Virus record (IMG/VR): IMGVR_UViG_3300046167_000050
Span: 1 to 35,371 of that record
Length of the DNA stretch: 35,371 nt
Direction: 5' to 3' (one strand)
DNA from: a virus
In this document: piece by piece, positions 5,173-18,195 of the stretch
How the letters are laid out: every line of letters starts with the position of its first letter
Position numbering within the stretch: position 1 is the first letter of the stretch
Notes under the pieces: generated by a model
Told to the model about the DNA's origin: nothing
Database searches by the model: none
What the model saw: the letters and a program-made list of their open reading frames with translations, nothing else
Translations under genes and position numbers: made by a program

Positions 5173-6981
5173 ATGAACTTCTTAGAATTTTTGACATTGC
5201 CAGCCAGAGAACGTCGGGAAGAACTGGGTAACTTTGTTGGTGGTCTGTTTGAGAACGACGGATCGTATCGCAGAGCGTTAAGTCAAAACGAAATACCTTC
5301 TAACTTTCAAAATGTGTACGGGAATAGAACAGCTACCCCGTCAAGTGTTCAGTTTCTGCAAGACTACGGTGACTTTCTGCCAGTGATTGGTGATGTGGCT
5401 GGTGTGTCTGACGTTGCTCAAGAGCTTACAAGTGAAGATCCAAACTATCCACTAGCGGCTGGTTTAGGTTTAGCTACAGCGGCTGGTGCTGTGCCAGTTG
5501 TTGGTGATGCGGCTGGTAGAGCTATTTCTTCAGGTGCTAGGTCGCTGTTCGATGTAGCTAATCGTTTGGAGTTTGATCCAAGCACAGTTGGTAGCAATCT
5601 TGGAAATGTCAGGATAAAACCAAAGACAGAAACCCGTGAGGGTGAAAAGATATTCCAATCATTACAGGGTCAGCCTACAGCCCCAGAATTTATGGGGAGT
5701 GAAACATTAGCTCCAATGTCTAACGTGACTAATGTCAAAAGCCAAAAAGACATAGCTTTAAAAAACCATGAAAGCATAATTAGAAGTACAGGTGAGTTAA
5801 AGAAACCAACACAAATAGATATTGATCAGCTTGAAGGGTCAACACTCTTAGCAATCGTTGGTGACAATACGGGACGTCAAGATGTTTTGTCGGTAGGCGG
5901 TGAAGTTTTTGATACTCCTGTTAGAAGCTTGGCTGGTTTTCAATACATTGATGTGGATAACCCATTACACGGTTATGCTGGGGCTAAAACAGCCACAAGT
6001 GCAAAGCTAAATGAAGCACAAAGGATAGCGGAAGCTGGTGGAGATCCTGTCTATATTTCGTTTTTGATGGGTGAAAAGTCTGGTGATTTTGCAGATCATA
6101 CTGGTGCTACTTATGGCAAAATGTTTGCTAATTCCCATGCAAGAATTGAACCAAAAGATTATGAAACAATAAATGAAAAGATTAGAAATATTGGTGTTCC
6201 TAAAAGCAAACCAAAATTAGATGCTAATGGCGATCAAATATTCAAAGCAAATGGCAACCCAGCGATGGATAATTTTACGGAATATCCATTTAAAAACTTT
6301 GAAGGCATTAATAATCCAAACGCTATATTTGAATATATGGCATCACTCCCAACAGGAACCCAACGGGCATACTTTTTAAAAGGTTTGGATAAAGCAAACT
6401 TGTTTAAGCTAGGTATGCCTAAAGTGCAAGATGCCCGACTAGCTGTAGCTGATAGCGCACAATTAGGTATGGATTGGGGAACTTCTGGTTATCGTTTATT
6501 TAGACCCGACATCGAAAGAGGTCTAATTGAAACCACCCCAGAAATGCACACAACTTACGATACTGGTGTAGGTAAAGTGGGACCGTCTATGAGTTTACTT
6601 GGACGCACAGTAGAGGAAGGTGCAAACTCTAACCCAAGCAAAGGCATCCCAGCTAACTTATTATTTAGCGACTTGTCGGAAGCTCAAAGAGCAAAAGGCA
6701 CTGGTGGCGGTTTACTTATGAGTAGCCCTGATTACAAAGTTTACGAAGGAAGCACCAAAAAGGCTGTACAGAAAGTAGAACCAGTAAATGTGGATACAGT
6801 TAACACATTCCTTGACATCGAAAAAACTCAAGGGCGTGATAGGGCTTATCAGTTTGCTCAAAAAGTGTTATCAGCGGGTAAAGTAACCAACGAATTGATT
6901 AAGCAAGCCAAAAAGATGAACGCCCCAACATGGGTAGTAGCTCTGATGGTTTCACAGCAAGCAATGCAAGGGGACGAATAA
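5173..6981 (+). CDS. Large virion-associated protein of unknown function
   Basis: 602 residues, starting two bases after the preceding stop. Residues about 90-125 form an Ala/Gly-rich hydrophobic stretch (LAAGLGLATAAGAVPVVGDA) of the kind found in ejection proteins and polyvalent phage proteins. The middle (about 215-430) has STLLAIVGDNTGRQDVLSVG, then DPVYISFLMGEKSGDF, then HTTYDTGVG. This order recalls a large-polyvalent-protein domain carried in phage virions. No catalytic site can be claimed. Its stop overlaps the adaptor start, placing it in the head-tail operon. It could enter the cell with DNA. Confidence 0.6.
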   Translation: MNFLEFLTLPARERREELGNFVGGLFENDGSYRRALSQNEIPSNFQNVYGNRTATPSSVQFLQDYGDFLPVIGDVAGVSDVAQELTSEDPNYPLAAGLGLATAAGAVPVVGDAAGRAISSGARSLFDVANRLEFDPSTVGSNLGNVRIKPKTETREGEKIFQSLQGQPTAPEFMGSETLAPMSNVTNVKSQKDIALKNHESIIRSTGELKKPTQIDIDQLEGSTLLAIVGDNTGRQDVLSVGGEVFDTPVRSLAGFQYIDVDNPLHGYAGAKTATSAKLNEAQRIAEAGGDPVYISFLMGEKSGDFADHTGATYGKMFANSHARIEPKDYETINEKIRNIGVPKSKPKLDANGDQIFKANGNPAMDNFTEYPFKNFEGINNPNAIFEYMASLPTGTQRAYFLKGLDKANLFKLGMPKVQDARLAVADSAQLGMDWGTSGYRLFRPDIERGLIETTPEMHTTYDTGVGKVGPSMSLLGRTVEEGANSNPSKGIPANLLFSDLSEAQRAKGTGGGLLMSSPDYKVYEGSTKKAVQKVEPVNVDTVNTFLDIEKTQGRDRAYQFAQKVLSAGKVTNELIKQAKKMNAPTWVVALMVSQQAMQGDE

Positions 6982-7601
6982 TGGCTCTTACAACTTATGA
7001 TGAACTAAAAGTTTCTGTATCAGATTTTTTAAATCGTGATGATTTAACCACAGTTATTCCCGATTTTATTACTTTATCAGAAGCGCAAATGAATAGAGAA
7101 GTTCGTCATTATAGAATGGAAAAACGTGCGACTGCACAGTTAAATACGCAATATACAGCTTTACCTACAGATTTTCTACAGCCTATTAGATTTGTTATTA
7201 CGGCTTCAGATATATCCACGTTAGAGCAAGCAAGCGCATTAGAAATATCTAAGCTTCGTGAAGCAAACAATGATACGACAGGCAAGCCAACAACGTATTC
7301 TATATTAGATAGTTCAATAGAAGTTTTTCCAAAACCGGACGCAACTTATACTCTTGAGTTGTTATATTATGAAAAAATAAATGCATTAAATAATGGTAAT
7401 CAAACTAATTGGTTGCTTACTAACTACCCAGACGCTTATTTATATGGTGCTTTACTGCATTCTGCGCCATATTTGCAGGAAGATAGTAGAATACAAACAT
7501 GGGCGGCGTTGTATCAAAAAGCAATAAGTGATATTAATAGTGAAAGTGAACGATCAAAAACATCAGCTTCAGGGCGCAGAATTAAGATAAGGAGTTATTA
7601 A
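6981..7601 (+). CDS. Head-to-tail adaptor protein (SU10 adaptor-like)
   Basis: 206 residues from ATG 6981, which overlaps the preceding TAA (TAATG). The sequence follows the phage adaptor family closely: TYDELKVSVSDFLNRDDL, VIPDFITLSEAQMNREVRHY, MEKRATAQLN, ALPTDFLQPIR, YTLELLYYEKINALN, NWLLTNYPDAYLYGALLHSA and YLQEDSRIQTW. The adaptor ring attaches beneath the portal and carries the tail. Length is normal for the family. It precedes the adhesin genes, while the portal is 16 kb downstream. Confidence 0.85.
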   Translation: MALTTYDELKVSVSDFLNRDDLTTVIPDFITLSEAQMNREVRHYRMEKRATAQLNTQYTALPTDFLQPIRFVITASDISTLEQASALEISKLREANNDTTGKPTTYSILDSSIEVFPKPDATYTLELLYYEKINALNNGNQTNWLLTNYPDAYLYGALLHSAPYLQEDSRIQTWAALYQKAISDINSESERSKTSASGRRIKIRSY

Positions 7602-8655: not shown

Positions 8656-9420
8656 ATGGGGAAGTCTAAAGATTTAGCTTCAGGCGCAGCATATCAGGAT
8701 CAGACTGAAAGCGATACAAGATATGTAAATACTGCTGGTGATACTATGACAGGTACATTAGTTGCTGGAACAAGGTTGCAAGTAGGTGATAGTTCTATAA
8801 CTCAAGGATATCCCCAAGCTAATTTTGGTTATGTGGCTGATTTTCAAGCAGCAACTGGAAGTCAAACTTTTATATCTATTGCCGAACCAAGCGTATCATC
8901 ATTAGGAGACAATGGTACTGTAATTGGTGAAGATACAAGTGACACTTATATTACACAACGTGGTAACAAGAATATTAAACTAGGCACAGCAAATGTAAAT
9001 CGTTTAATCATAGACGGATCAGGTCGTGTGACAATGCCTAGTCAGCCTAGGGCGTCTGCAGGATCAACGATGGGTGGTGCAGGATCAAACCGACATCCTG
9101 CAAGCACTATTTATGTTCAAATAGGTGGAACAAACCTTGCATCAAGTGGAAGATTTACTTGTCCTGTAGCTGGTGTGTATAGAGCAACTCTTACTGGTTA
9201 TACTAATTATACTGGCAGTTATGGTTATGTATATTTAAAAAAGAACGGATCACAACAAGGTTACAATATTCATTTTAATAATGCACAGGGAGTGATGCAC
9301 ACTATTGTGGCCTTAAATCAATTAGTTAACTGCACTGCTAATGATTATTTAGAGTTCTGGGGCGGTGCGGGTAGCGGCTATGTTCATTATTCTACTATAT
9401 CTTTTGAATTAGTAGGTTAG
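8656..9420 (+). CDS. Tail fibre-like protein with C1q-like C-terminal domain
   Basis: 254 residues. Residues about 15-35 carry the phage fibre/collar signature TESDTRYVNTAGDTMTGTL. The middle is a beta-helical shaft-like region. The last about 115 residues, from about residue 140 (YVQIGGTNLASSGRFTCPVA, GVYRATLTGYTNYTGS, LEFWGGAGSGY, FELVG), resemble a C1q/TNF-like jelly roll, a trimeric ligand-binding head used by phage adhesins. It probably binds a host surface receptor. Its end plus the following spacer form a 20-base repeat shared with the end of the fibre at 11054-12131. Confidence 0.75.
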   Translation: MGKSKDLASGAAYQDQTESDTRYVNTAGDTMTGTLVAGTRLQVGDSSITQGYPQANFGYVADFQAATGSQTFISIAEPSVSSLGDNGTVIGEDTSDTYITQRGNKNIKLGTANVNRLIIDGSGRVTMPSQPRASAGSTMGGAGSNRHPASTIYVQIGGTNLASSGRFTCPVAGVYRATLTGYTNYTGSYGYVYLKKNGSQQGYNIHFNNAQGVMHTIVALNQLVNCTANDYLEFWGGAGSGYVHYSTISFELVG

Positions 9421-14727: not shown

Positions 14728-15378
14728 GAAATATAAATGCCATTAGTTCCCTTAGATTTACCAGCAGGATTTTACAGAAACGGCACAGATTACGAAGGGT
14801 CTAATCGTTGGCGTGACGGTAGTTTAGTCAGATGGCTAGATGGCTCTATGCGCCCTATTGGTGGTTGGGAAGCTAGAAAGAACGGCTTTACTAAAAATCC
14901 AGTTCGGGGAATGCATGCTTGGCAAGATAACAATGGCACGGCTTGGCTTGCAGGCGGTAGCTTCGATGAGCTAGTTGTAATGACAGGTGCAGGCATTGCC
15001 TACGATATTACGCCAGATGATTTAGCAGGCGGCAGAGAAAGTGCGGCGGTTAATACTGGTTACGGTTTTGGGTATTATGGTCAGGATTATTACGGCAACC
15101 CCAGACCAGTAAATAGTGATAGCATTCCGCAAGAGGCAAGCACTTGGCAGTTAGATAACTTTGGTCAAAACCTCATAGCATTACATCAGGATGATGGCAG
15201 ATTATTTGAGTGGCCTTTATCTACAACTACTGGTTCTGAGCTAGTTACCAATGGCACATTTGCAACTGATGCAAACTGGAATAAAGGCGTTAACTGGTCA
15301 ATAGCAAATGGCTACGCTTCCTACGCACAACACAAAGCAACTTTTGCCACAGATAATACTGTTATTGGTACGCAAACC

Positions 15379-15693
15379 TTTGCAGTGACAGTTGTTAACG
15401 TAGGCGGTCAGAATAAATATGCTTTCAATGGCGCTGTAGCGCCTGCCTTATCGCTTGTGAGAGGCGTAACGTATACTTTTGATATGAGCGACAACTCTAA
15501 CAGTGGACACCCTCTAGCTTTTAAGAATGGCTCTACGGCATATACGACAGGAGTGACAACAACAGGCACGGCAGGAGCGGCAGGAGCAAGTGTTGTTATA
15601 GCAGTAGACGCCGCTGCCCCTGCTTCTGGTTTGCTGTATTATTGTACGGTTCATGGTAACGCGATGGGTGCGGCTATCACTACAAGCGCAAAT
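15379..15693 (+). other. Cupredoxin-like domain 1 inside the tail protein
   Basis: About 105 residues within the gene at 14737: strands KYAFNGAVAPALSLVRGVTY and TFDMSDNSNSGHPLAF, ending LLYYCTVHGNAMG. The ligand pattern of a type 1 copper site is complete: His (codon 15508), Cys (15643), His (15652), Met (15664), spaced C-x2-H-x3-M. The domain is bounded by fibre-type repeats, so it looks like an inserted module. Confidence 0.7.
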
Positions 15694-17190
15694 ACAGCAC
15701 CTATAAATTATGCTACAGAAACAATAACAGCAACGGCGCATGGATTTTCTAACGGAAATGAGGTTACTTACACTGTGCCAACAGGACAATCGGCAATAGG
15801 CGGTCTAACCTCTGGCACAAATTACTTTGTAGTTTCTGCGGCAACCAACAGTTTAAAATTAGCGGCAACTTCTGGTGGTACAGCAATTAATTTGACTTCG
15901 CCTTTATCTGTCACAATAGACGGTAGTAGCGGTTCGGTTGTGGTTTTGGCTACTAATAAAATAGTAATTTCCAATACATTTACGAACGGTGATAAGGTTG
16001 TTTATTCTAATGGCAACGGCACAGATATAACTGGCTTGGTAAACGGCACGGAATATTTTATTGTTGGCGCTAGTTCATCTGAATTTCAGCTTGCAGCAAC
16101 GTCAGGTGGCGCAGCAATTGCACTAACGGCATTAGGCACTGGAACAGCCCACAGTTTTACTAAGCGTCTGGGCGCAACGCATCAATTAGCATTAGTAAGC
16201 GTTATTACAGGCTACTGTTTTTGATCAAACGGTAAGTGGTTTAGTTGTAAGCCCAGATAGCCAAGATAGCCACGATTTAGAAATAACACTGATTGATCGA
16301 AACGATGATGGTGATGCTTCCACAATACCTAATGTGAAAGTTAAAGTTACTGGCACAACTACAAGTACGGTAAACATAGATCAGACGCTTGTAGTCGGAT
16401 CAAACATATTTAGATTTGGCGCAACGGATGCCGCTGTTAAAATAGAAATAATACCACAAGTATATAATACTCCAAATTTTGATATTGATAACGTATCTTT
16501 AAAGAAAAGAACTGTTACCGCGCCCATTGCAAATGCACCAATCGACAATAAGGGTATGGTTGTAACAGAAGAGCGTTTTATCTTTGCATTAGGTTCTGGC
16601 GGCAATAGCCGTAAAGTTTCTTGGTGCGATAAAGAAAACAATACAGTCTGGACGCCAAGTGCAACGAATGAAGCAGGCGATATTGAGTTAGCTACTGCAG
16701 GACAGATAATGCAGGGCATAAGAGGCCGTGGCGTTACACTGATTTTAACTGACACAGATGCCCACGTTGCACAGTATATCGCGCCACCTTATGTGTACTC
16801 ATTTCAAAGAATTGGAACGCATTGTGGAGCAGTTTCTAGGCTTTCTGCGGTGGCTGTTGACCGTGGTGTATTTTGGTATGGGCAAGAGAATTTCCATTAT
16901 TTCGATGGTAACACGGTGCAAACGTTAAAGTGCGATGTGCATGATTACGTCTTTGGTGATTTTAACAAGGATCAACAATCTAAAGTTTGGGGTATGTCCG
17001 TTGGTTCTGAGGACGAAATCTGGTGGTTTTATTGTTCTGCATCTTCAACCGAAATAGATAGATATGTTGGCTATGATGCGGCAGAGGGTCATTGGCTCAT
17101 TGGTAATTTATCAAGAACGTCAGGCGTAAGCAGAGGTGTATTTGCTCATCCGTTTATGGCAGGCGAACTAGCAGAAACATTAGATATAAA

Positions 17191-17517
17191 TGTAAGTGTT
17201 GTAAATGATGGTGGTAATAAATATGCGTTTAATACTTATTTGGGTTATGCGCCAACATTGCAATTAATCAGAGGCAAAACTTATAAATTCAAACAAGATG
17301 CGGCAAGCAATGCAACGCATCCTTTTAGATTTTCTACGCAACCAAACGGAACGCATGGCGGTGGGGTAGAATATACAGAAGGTGTTACGAAAGTAGGAAC
17401 GGCAGGACAGGCAGGAAGCTACACGCAAATAGTGGTTGGGGCTAATACGCCTACTTTGTATTATTATTGCGTTAATCATTCTGGTATGGGGTCAACAGCA
17501 AATGTTGTAGAGCCAGT
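17191..17517 (+). other. Cupredoxin-like domain 2 inside the tail protein
   Basis: A second copy near the C-terminus: NKYAFNTYLGYAPTLQLIRG, KTYKFKQDAASNATHPFRFS and TLYYYCVNHSGMGS. Ligands are His (codon 17318), Cys (17468), His (17477) and Met (17486), spaced C-x2-H-x2-M. It is clearly related to domain 1 but diverged, so this is an old duplication or separate acquisition. Confidence 0.7.
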
Positions 17518-17847
17518 AAGTATATTTAACCATGAGTATGGTCATAACTACGATAGCCAACCTATATTCTGCGAAACAAGTTCAATCAGTATTGGTAATG
17601 GTGATCAGATAGCTAAAGTTACTGAGGTTATACCAGATGAAAAGACGCAAGGTGATGTTAACCTTAAATTCAAAACACGCTTTAATCCTAACGATGTAGA
17701 GCGTGAATATGGTGCATATAACCCTAGCAACCCTACGTCAGTACGGTTTTCTGGTAGGCAAATCCGCATGAGGGTAGAGGGTGATCAAAATGTTGATTGG
17801 CGTGTTGGCACTATGCGCTTAGATGTAAAAGCAGGGGGCAGACGGTA

Positions 17848-18195
17848 ATGCCAGTTACACCGCCTATTCTTGGTGAGGATTTACGACAGTGGGGCAGGCA
17901 ACTTAATTTGTTTCTAAGCAGAAATTTGGGTAAGTTATACTTTAAAACCAGTGACGATAACCCTAGCGAAAACGGTATATTTTTGTGGGATGAAGATAAG
18001 AATTATCCTGTTGTGTCAGCGCAAAACGCATTTAAGCAGATTGCAATGAAGCAAACCACGCCTAGCTCTAGTGTTGGTGCGGCTGGCGATGCGGCTGGCA
18101 TGATAGCTTGGGATACGTCTTATATTTATATTTGTACTGGCACACATAACGGTAGTGCAGCAATTTGGAAGAGGGTAGCATTGTCTACATATTAA
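17848..18195 (+). CDS. Conserved tail-locus protein
   Basis: 115 residues from ATG 17848, overlapping the tail gene stop (TAATG). MPVTPPILGEDLRQWGRQLN and LFLSRNLGKLYF give an N-terminal helix. The C-terminal half is beta (GAAGDAAGMIAWDTSYIYIC, TGTHNGSAAIWKRVAL). The C-terminal motif is common at the tips of phage tail proteins. It is probably a small virion protein attached to the gp10-like protein. Confidence 0.65.
   Translation: MPVTPPILGEDLRQWGRQLNLFLSRNLGKLYFKTSDDNPSENGIFLWDEDKNYPVVSAQNAFKQIAMKQTTPSSSVGAAGDAAGMIAWDTSYIYICTGTHNGSAAIWKRVALSTY

Follow-up and report, generated by a model that had tools for sequence, protein, structure and literature searches.

In cells, cupredoxins are familiar as electron carriers; here, their fold and ligand set recur in virion structural proteins. 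Metal binding by phage tails has been described for tail fibers, in which HxH motifs bind iron and have been proposed to play a role in attachment (PMC11705849). In phage SU10, the tail nozzle is a hexamer that docks to an adaptor protein. A search of the open-access literature returned no description of cupredoxins in phage virions. We analyzed a 35,371-base virus record (IMG/VR IMGVR_UViG_3300046167_000050), hereafter called the window, in which a nozzle-like tail gene carries two cupredoxin-like domains. The cupredoxin fold and the podoviral nozzle are known parts; for the two combined in a module that recurs in virions, the open-access search gave no precedent.

The carrier gene and its two domains

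The gene that carries both domains encodes a podoviral tail hub (nozzle) of the P22 gp10/SU10 gp17 type with a beta-propeller core. PHROG 3287 matched both of its halves (E values of 6e-14 and 3.7e-56), the match being interrupted by inserts, and the core has sequenced relatives that bear the annotation "phage stabilization protein." A full-length model built on the intact relative L003 was of moderate quality (pLDDT 71, pTM 0.45), and its propeller matched the tail proteins of Pa223 (Z 23.9), SU10 (Z 22.5) and P22 (gp10, Z 21.3). As unrelated propellers scored Z values of 17 to 20 against the same model, the propeller fold alone is not specific. The profile match, the annotation of the relatives and the matches to nozzle structures together bear out the gp10-like assignment made in the initial annotation, but its view of the carrier as a single gene does not hold for this record, where a one-base frameshift near position 16210 leaves two ORFs.

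The first ORF codes for the N-terminal part of the propeller (to about position 15230) and most of the insert at site A, and the open frame of the second part reaches upstream to about position 16211. The closest relatives (L001 to L006) have a single intact ORF, which in relatives of 94 to 96% DNA identity spans about 1,036 residues with the Met as the first. Both gene halves are under strong purifying selection (dN/dS of 0.02 to 0.17 relative to L001 and L003), which argues that the lesion is recent or a sequencing or assembly error. This is likelier than a programmed frameshift at position 16210, which is not favored because the shift is missing from the 94 to 96% identical relatives and both halves are under purifying selection.

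Genes for a terminase, an SU10-type adaptor, a lysozyme-like tail protein, a portal, a scaffold and a coat protein are located nearby, and the adaptor is also found in eight of nine related records. Its match to PF24175 at 6930 to 7601 suggests a Kuravirus-like tail on a phage with P22-like head genes. A weak match to the C1q domain (PF00386, E value of 0.003, below the cutoff) at 8656 to 9420 is perhaps a fiber tip.

Each cupredoxin-like domain comprises approximately 110 residues, and the two are 47% identical. The copper loop reads C-x2-H-x3-M in copy A and C-x2-H-x2-M in copy B, the latter with the short spacing of amicyanins. In copy A the ligand codons are at 15508-15510 (His258), 15643-15645 (Cys303), 15652-15654 (His306) and 15664-15666 (Met310); in copy B they are at 17318-17320 (His329), 17468-17470 (Cys379), 17477-17479 (His382) and 17486-17488 (Met385). 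The pattern H-x20-70-C-x2-H-x2,3-M appeared in 0.125% of shuffles of the two proteins, and simultaneously in both in 0 of 20,000, which rules out a chance origin. A six-frame search of ORFs of at least 60 residues found it solely in the two ORFs of the tail gene, and a record-wide search revealed no copies other than A and B. Thus, the initial annotation was right in reporting two tail gene domains with the complete type 1 set, His...Cys-x2-His-x2/3-Met: both motifs are in frame and above chance. The domains are where it placed them, from positions 15379 and 17191, except that both start slightly further upstream and that 17191 is out of frame with copy B (Table 1).

Table 1. Coordinates of the tail gene, its inserts and the adaptor gene in the window
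Feature	Coordinates	Strand	Evidence or remarks
SU10-type adaptor protein	6930..7601	+	PF24175, E 2.2e-34
gp10/nozzle-like gene, first part	14737..16224	+	PHROG 3287 match 9-180; relatives with intact ~1036-aa ORF
Site A insert	15232..16513	+	Absent in ~494-aa homologues; between second and third propeller blades, at place of Ig-like nozzle domains in SU10
Cupredoxin-like domain A (site A)	15364..15693	+	Ligands H258, C303, H306, M310
One-base frameshift, gene split in window	16190..16224	+	Relative to all close relatives
gp10/nozzle-like gene, second part	16334..17848	+	PHROG 3287, E 3.7e-56
Cupredoxin-like domain B (site B)	17171..17515	+	Ligands H329, C379, H382, M385; predicted structure pLDDT 96.9

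Fold and conservation of the ligands

The structure of copy B was predicted with AlphaFold2 using 34 relatives, yielding a model with a pLDDT of 96.9 and a pTM of 0.89. In Foldseek, copper nitrite reductase and rusticyanin were its top PDB matches and laccases, AcoP and pseudoazurin ranked lower, and the first-ranked VIA match was the type 1 copper domain of Hyphomicrobium nitrite reductase (Z 10.0, rmsd 2.5 over 100 residues). At the sequence level, a PDB search with copy B alone as query gave no match, so that a profile was needed. The profile matched a Nitrosopumilus copper oxidase (E value of 1.1e-4) and plastocyanin (2.1e-4) and also reached solved amicyanins, the matches to plastocyanins, amicyanins and copper oxidases having E values of 1e-4 and weaker. 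In these alignments the Cys, His and Met were in register, as was the upstream His in the case of plastocyanin. The Pfam Copper-bind family (PF00127) was matched by 5 of the 34 family members (best E value of 1.2e-5) and the NCBIfam plastocyanin family by 3; domains A and B of the window gave no match to PF00127 at E values up to 1 and thus fall outside that family by this threshold.

The model indicates that domain B is a Greek-key beta-sandwich of the cupredoxin type, and the 47% identity and identical ligands of domain A point to the same fold. The comparison with cupredoxins proposed in the initial annotation thus came out in favor of that fold, the best solved matches being blue-copper and multicopper proteins. 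A ligand set of His, Cys, His and Met suits copper over zinc, and both domains likely bind copper, judging from their sequences and the predicted structure. That the metal in the site is not copper but, for instance, zinc or iron is very improbable, because Met together with one Cys and two His is rare in zinc and iron sites and both the arrangement and the fold match those of type 1 copper proteins.

We then turned to the homologues. A first set was fetched with patterns that included LYYYCVNH and was therefore biased, as this pattern covered the Cys and His. For a second set, the query was restricted to the part upstream of the Cys loop, which removed the selection bias; all four ligands were kept in all 70 distinct copies obtained with these patterns lacking the Cys/His/Met loop. 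The possibility that the Cys, His and Met positions vary freely among homologues, raised in the initial annotation as grounds for refutation, is therefore contradicted by the unbiased set. When the homologue sets gathered by this stage were pooled into 229 distinct copies, the first His was present in 228, the Cys in 227, the second His in 227 and the Met in 228. No columns among these copies are more conserved than those of the four ligands, the Tyr two positions before the Cys coming next, and overall identity goes down to 23-60%. Sequenced phages agree, with the full set in 15 of 16 copies from 13 genomes. The dN/dS values of domains A and B relative to four relatives (0.06 to 0.17) indicate purifying selection. 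The type 1 site is thus very probably kept by selection.

Ligand loss was observed in one copy of L197 and one of L066 (2 of 229), and in one copy of Synechococcus phage S-SZBM1. As the domain is kept in such copies, loss of the site need not abolish the fold. L197, L066 and L364, in which the domain is retained and the copper ligands are gone, represent natural controls. The persistence of a few copies after ligand loss, and the many beta-sandwich modules borne by marine phage structural proteins, would fit plain Ig-like decoration modules whose metal site, as a relic or a folding aid, puts copper to no biological use. We consider this explanation unlikely, since a relic site would be the first to lose its ligands, whereas they are the top conserved columns of the 229 copies at identities as low as 23-60%.

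Insertion sites and distribution of the module

Insertion sites were read from an alignment of 36 homologues. Minimal homologues of about 494 residues contain neither cupredoxin domain, indicating that the domains are modules inserted at two points. In the L003 model, site A follows the second propeller blade and site B is where the propeller ends. Some relatives have a domain at site A only (L283 to L297), some at site B only (L008 to L014 and L306), and others at both (L001 to L007 and L298); L284 has two cupredoxins in tandem at site A, and the insert at site A is devoid of a cupredoxin in L300, L301 and L303. The module has thus come and gone at two fixed positions.

The match to the SU10 propeller runs to residue 812 of the model (835 in SU10), and domain B begins at residue 814. 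Site A would correspond to the position of the SU10 Ig-like nozzle domains and site B, roughly, to the dock of the short tail fibers, a mapping taken from the ends of the match ranges because the full-length model is of moderate quality and unrelated propellers reach Z values of 17 to 20. In a tree of the domains, the labels of sites A and B changed 2 and 4 times, compared with about 13 in shuffles, with few columns and weak deep support. A recent tandem duplication within the gene is not favored, as the copies of the two sites fall in separate parts of this tree, again with weak deep support.

Other modules were noticed in the same insert. Between domain A and the frameshift (15694 to 16190), repeats of an "HGF.NG..VTY...GL..GT.YF..." module match tail fiber PHROGs. 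The sequence flanking domain A (15232 to 15360 and 16211 to 16513) resembles a CBM_4_9-like carbohydrate-binding jelly roll split by that domain. Such a jelly roll was hinted at by a "GSELVTNGTF" stretch and by 3 of the 34 relatives, and it was rejected because neither the window nor L003 gave a Pfam match.

A tblastn search with copy B yielded matches in 139 of 50,697 phage records, nearly all of them marine cyanophages, pelagiphages and phages of Methylophilales. The carrier proteins are annotated as tail fiber, baseplate wedge, tail fiber connector (gp9) or virion structural protein, in line with the initial annotation, which had mentioned similar motifs in structural proteins of marine phages. 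One pass over viral contigs gave at least 590 confirmed module stretches. Among the fold matches in BFVD, A0A481Z6J5, A0A481YVH3 and A0A481Z7Q7 are small "beta-sandwich proteins" of pithovirus- or marseillevirus-like giant viruses.

The module also occurs in cells. Carriers in species genomes are predicted surface lipoproteins of SAR86, Woeseiaceae and other Gammaproteobacteria, with a lipobox followed by a glycine run, and a collagen-repeat protein of a marine euryarchaeon. The cellular loci that were checked have chromosomal neighbors, and the bacterial carriers contain cadherin or Ig domains; some further species-genome matches resemble phage contigs that ended up in cellular bins. Adhesin-like lipoproteins with the module in SAR86, other marine bacteria and an archaeon include L101, L116, L100, L094, L105 and L114. 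That the module is common to phage tails and to surface lipoproteins of abundant marine microbes suggests virus-host traffic of surface parts.

Proposed role and comparison with known systems

The best overall explanation, to which we assign a probability of roughly 0.6, is that the domains form an exposed contact module of the tail that is stapled by copper. The nozzle protein would be hexameric, as in SU10, and with two domains per subunit the virion would display 12 sites. The domains would fold in the apo form in the host cytoplasm, which would keep the cysteine reduced, and would acquire copper once the cell has lysed; the exposed loops would then be pinned together by this metal. Copper is probably held in the virion. 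The metal-stapled module would help the tail tip engage the host surface as a contact or adhesion element and would not be an electron transfer enzyme. This role is suggested by the location of the module at exposed insertion sites and its occurrence elsewhere beside adhesion-type domains: insert A is at the place of the host-facing Ig-like nozzle domains of SU10, and domain B is close to the fiber dock. By this analogy, surface contact may be the main role, an assignment that we regard as tentative. Decoration, redox and metal-guided attachment are possible roles that we rank below it.

A redox role, in which electrons pass to or from the sites at the cell surface to sense the oxidation state or trigger a rearrangement of the tail, would account for an axial methionine that is near invariant, as in redox-active blue copper proteins. 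It is nevertheless improbable, as we saw neither a partner oxidase or reductase nor a second copper center in the carriers, and the module is common to adhesin-like proteins. Somewhat less remote, and still quite unlikely, is a Trojan horse mechanism analogous to that hypothesized for iron-loaded HxH motifs, in which host copper or metallophore uptake receptors recognize the metal-loaded domain and thereby guide attachment. The analogy with SU10 would place the site at the tail tip, the carriers among sequenced phages are nearly all marine, and iron bound by tail fiber HxH motifs has a proposed role in attachment (PMC11705849); against this, there is no known receptor, the metal of a type 1 site is buried, and the hosts of the carriers are as different as cyanobacteria and SAR11.

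If the copper-stapled contact module does bind copper, trace-metal chemistry becomes a variable in the infection of ocean phages. Since the module occurs in the ocean both on the tails of many phages and on microbial surface proteins, virus particles may bring copper to the cell surface. A broader view, which we consider speculative and rather doubtful, is that the virions of many marine phages are themselves copper metalloproteins: type 1 sites at the tail tip or baseplate would be charged with copper from seawater once the host has lysed and would then serve host attachment or trigger the ejection of the genome, so that the supply of copper would affect infection in the ocean. Carriers in culture, which comprise cyanophages and pelagiphages and include S-TIM5, P-SSM2 and HTVC028P, make an influence of trace metals on infection directly testable.

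Among described systems, three are closest to the phage module and its carrier. With the tail hubs SU10 gp17, P22 gp10 and T7 gp12, the carrier shares the beta-propeller core (Z 20 to 24), and with SU10 in particular an insertion between blades 2 and 3 and, in the same genome, an SU10-type adaptor. The insert at site A consists of a cupredoxin and other modules, whereas SU10 has Ig-like domains at that place; the second cupredoxin is near the site of the SU10 fiber dock loop. With the HxH sites of tail fibers (T4 gp37 and, as proposed, Alteromonas phage R22Y), the module shares metal-binding residues on a receptor-facing part of the tail, but the former coordinate octahedral iron through paired histidines along a trimeric fiber, whereas the latter has a single-chain site of the blue copper type. 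With cupredoxins of the plastocyanin and amicyanin type (PF00127; PDB 2dv6, the N-terminal type 1 domain of the Hyphomicrobium nitrite reductase), it shares the beta-sandwich and the order of the ligands. It differs from its best structural match by an identity of about 14 to 19% and by additional residues inserted after the first His and ahead of the Cys loop, and from plastocyanins and amicyanins by being part of a virion protein, whereas they are soluble electron carriers of the periplasm or the thylakoid.
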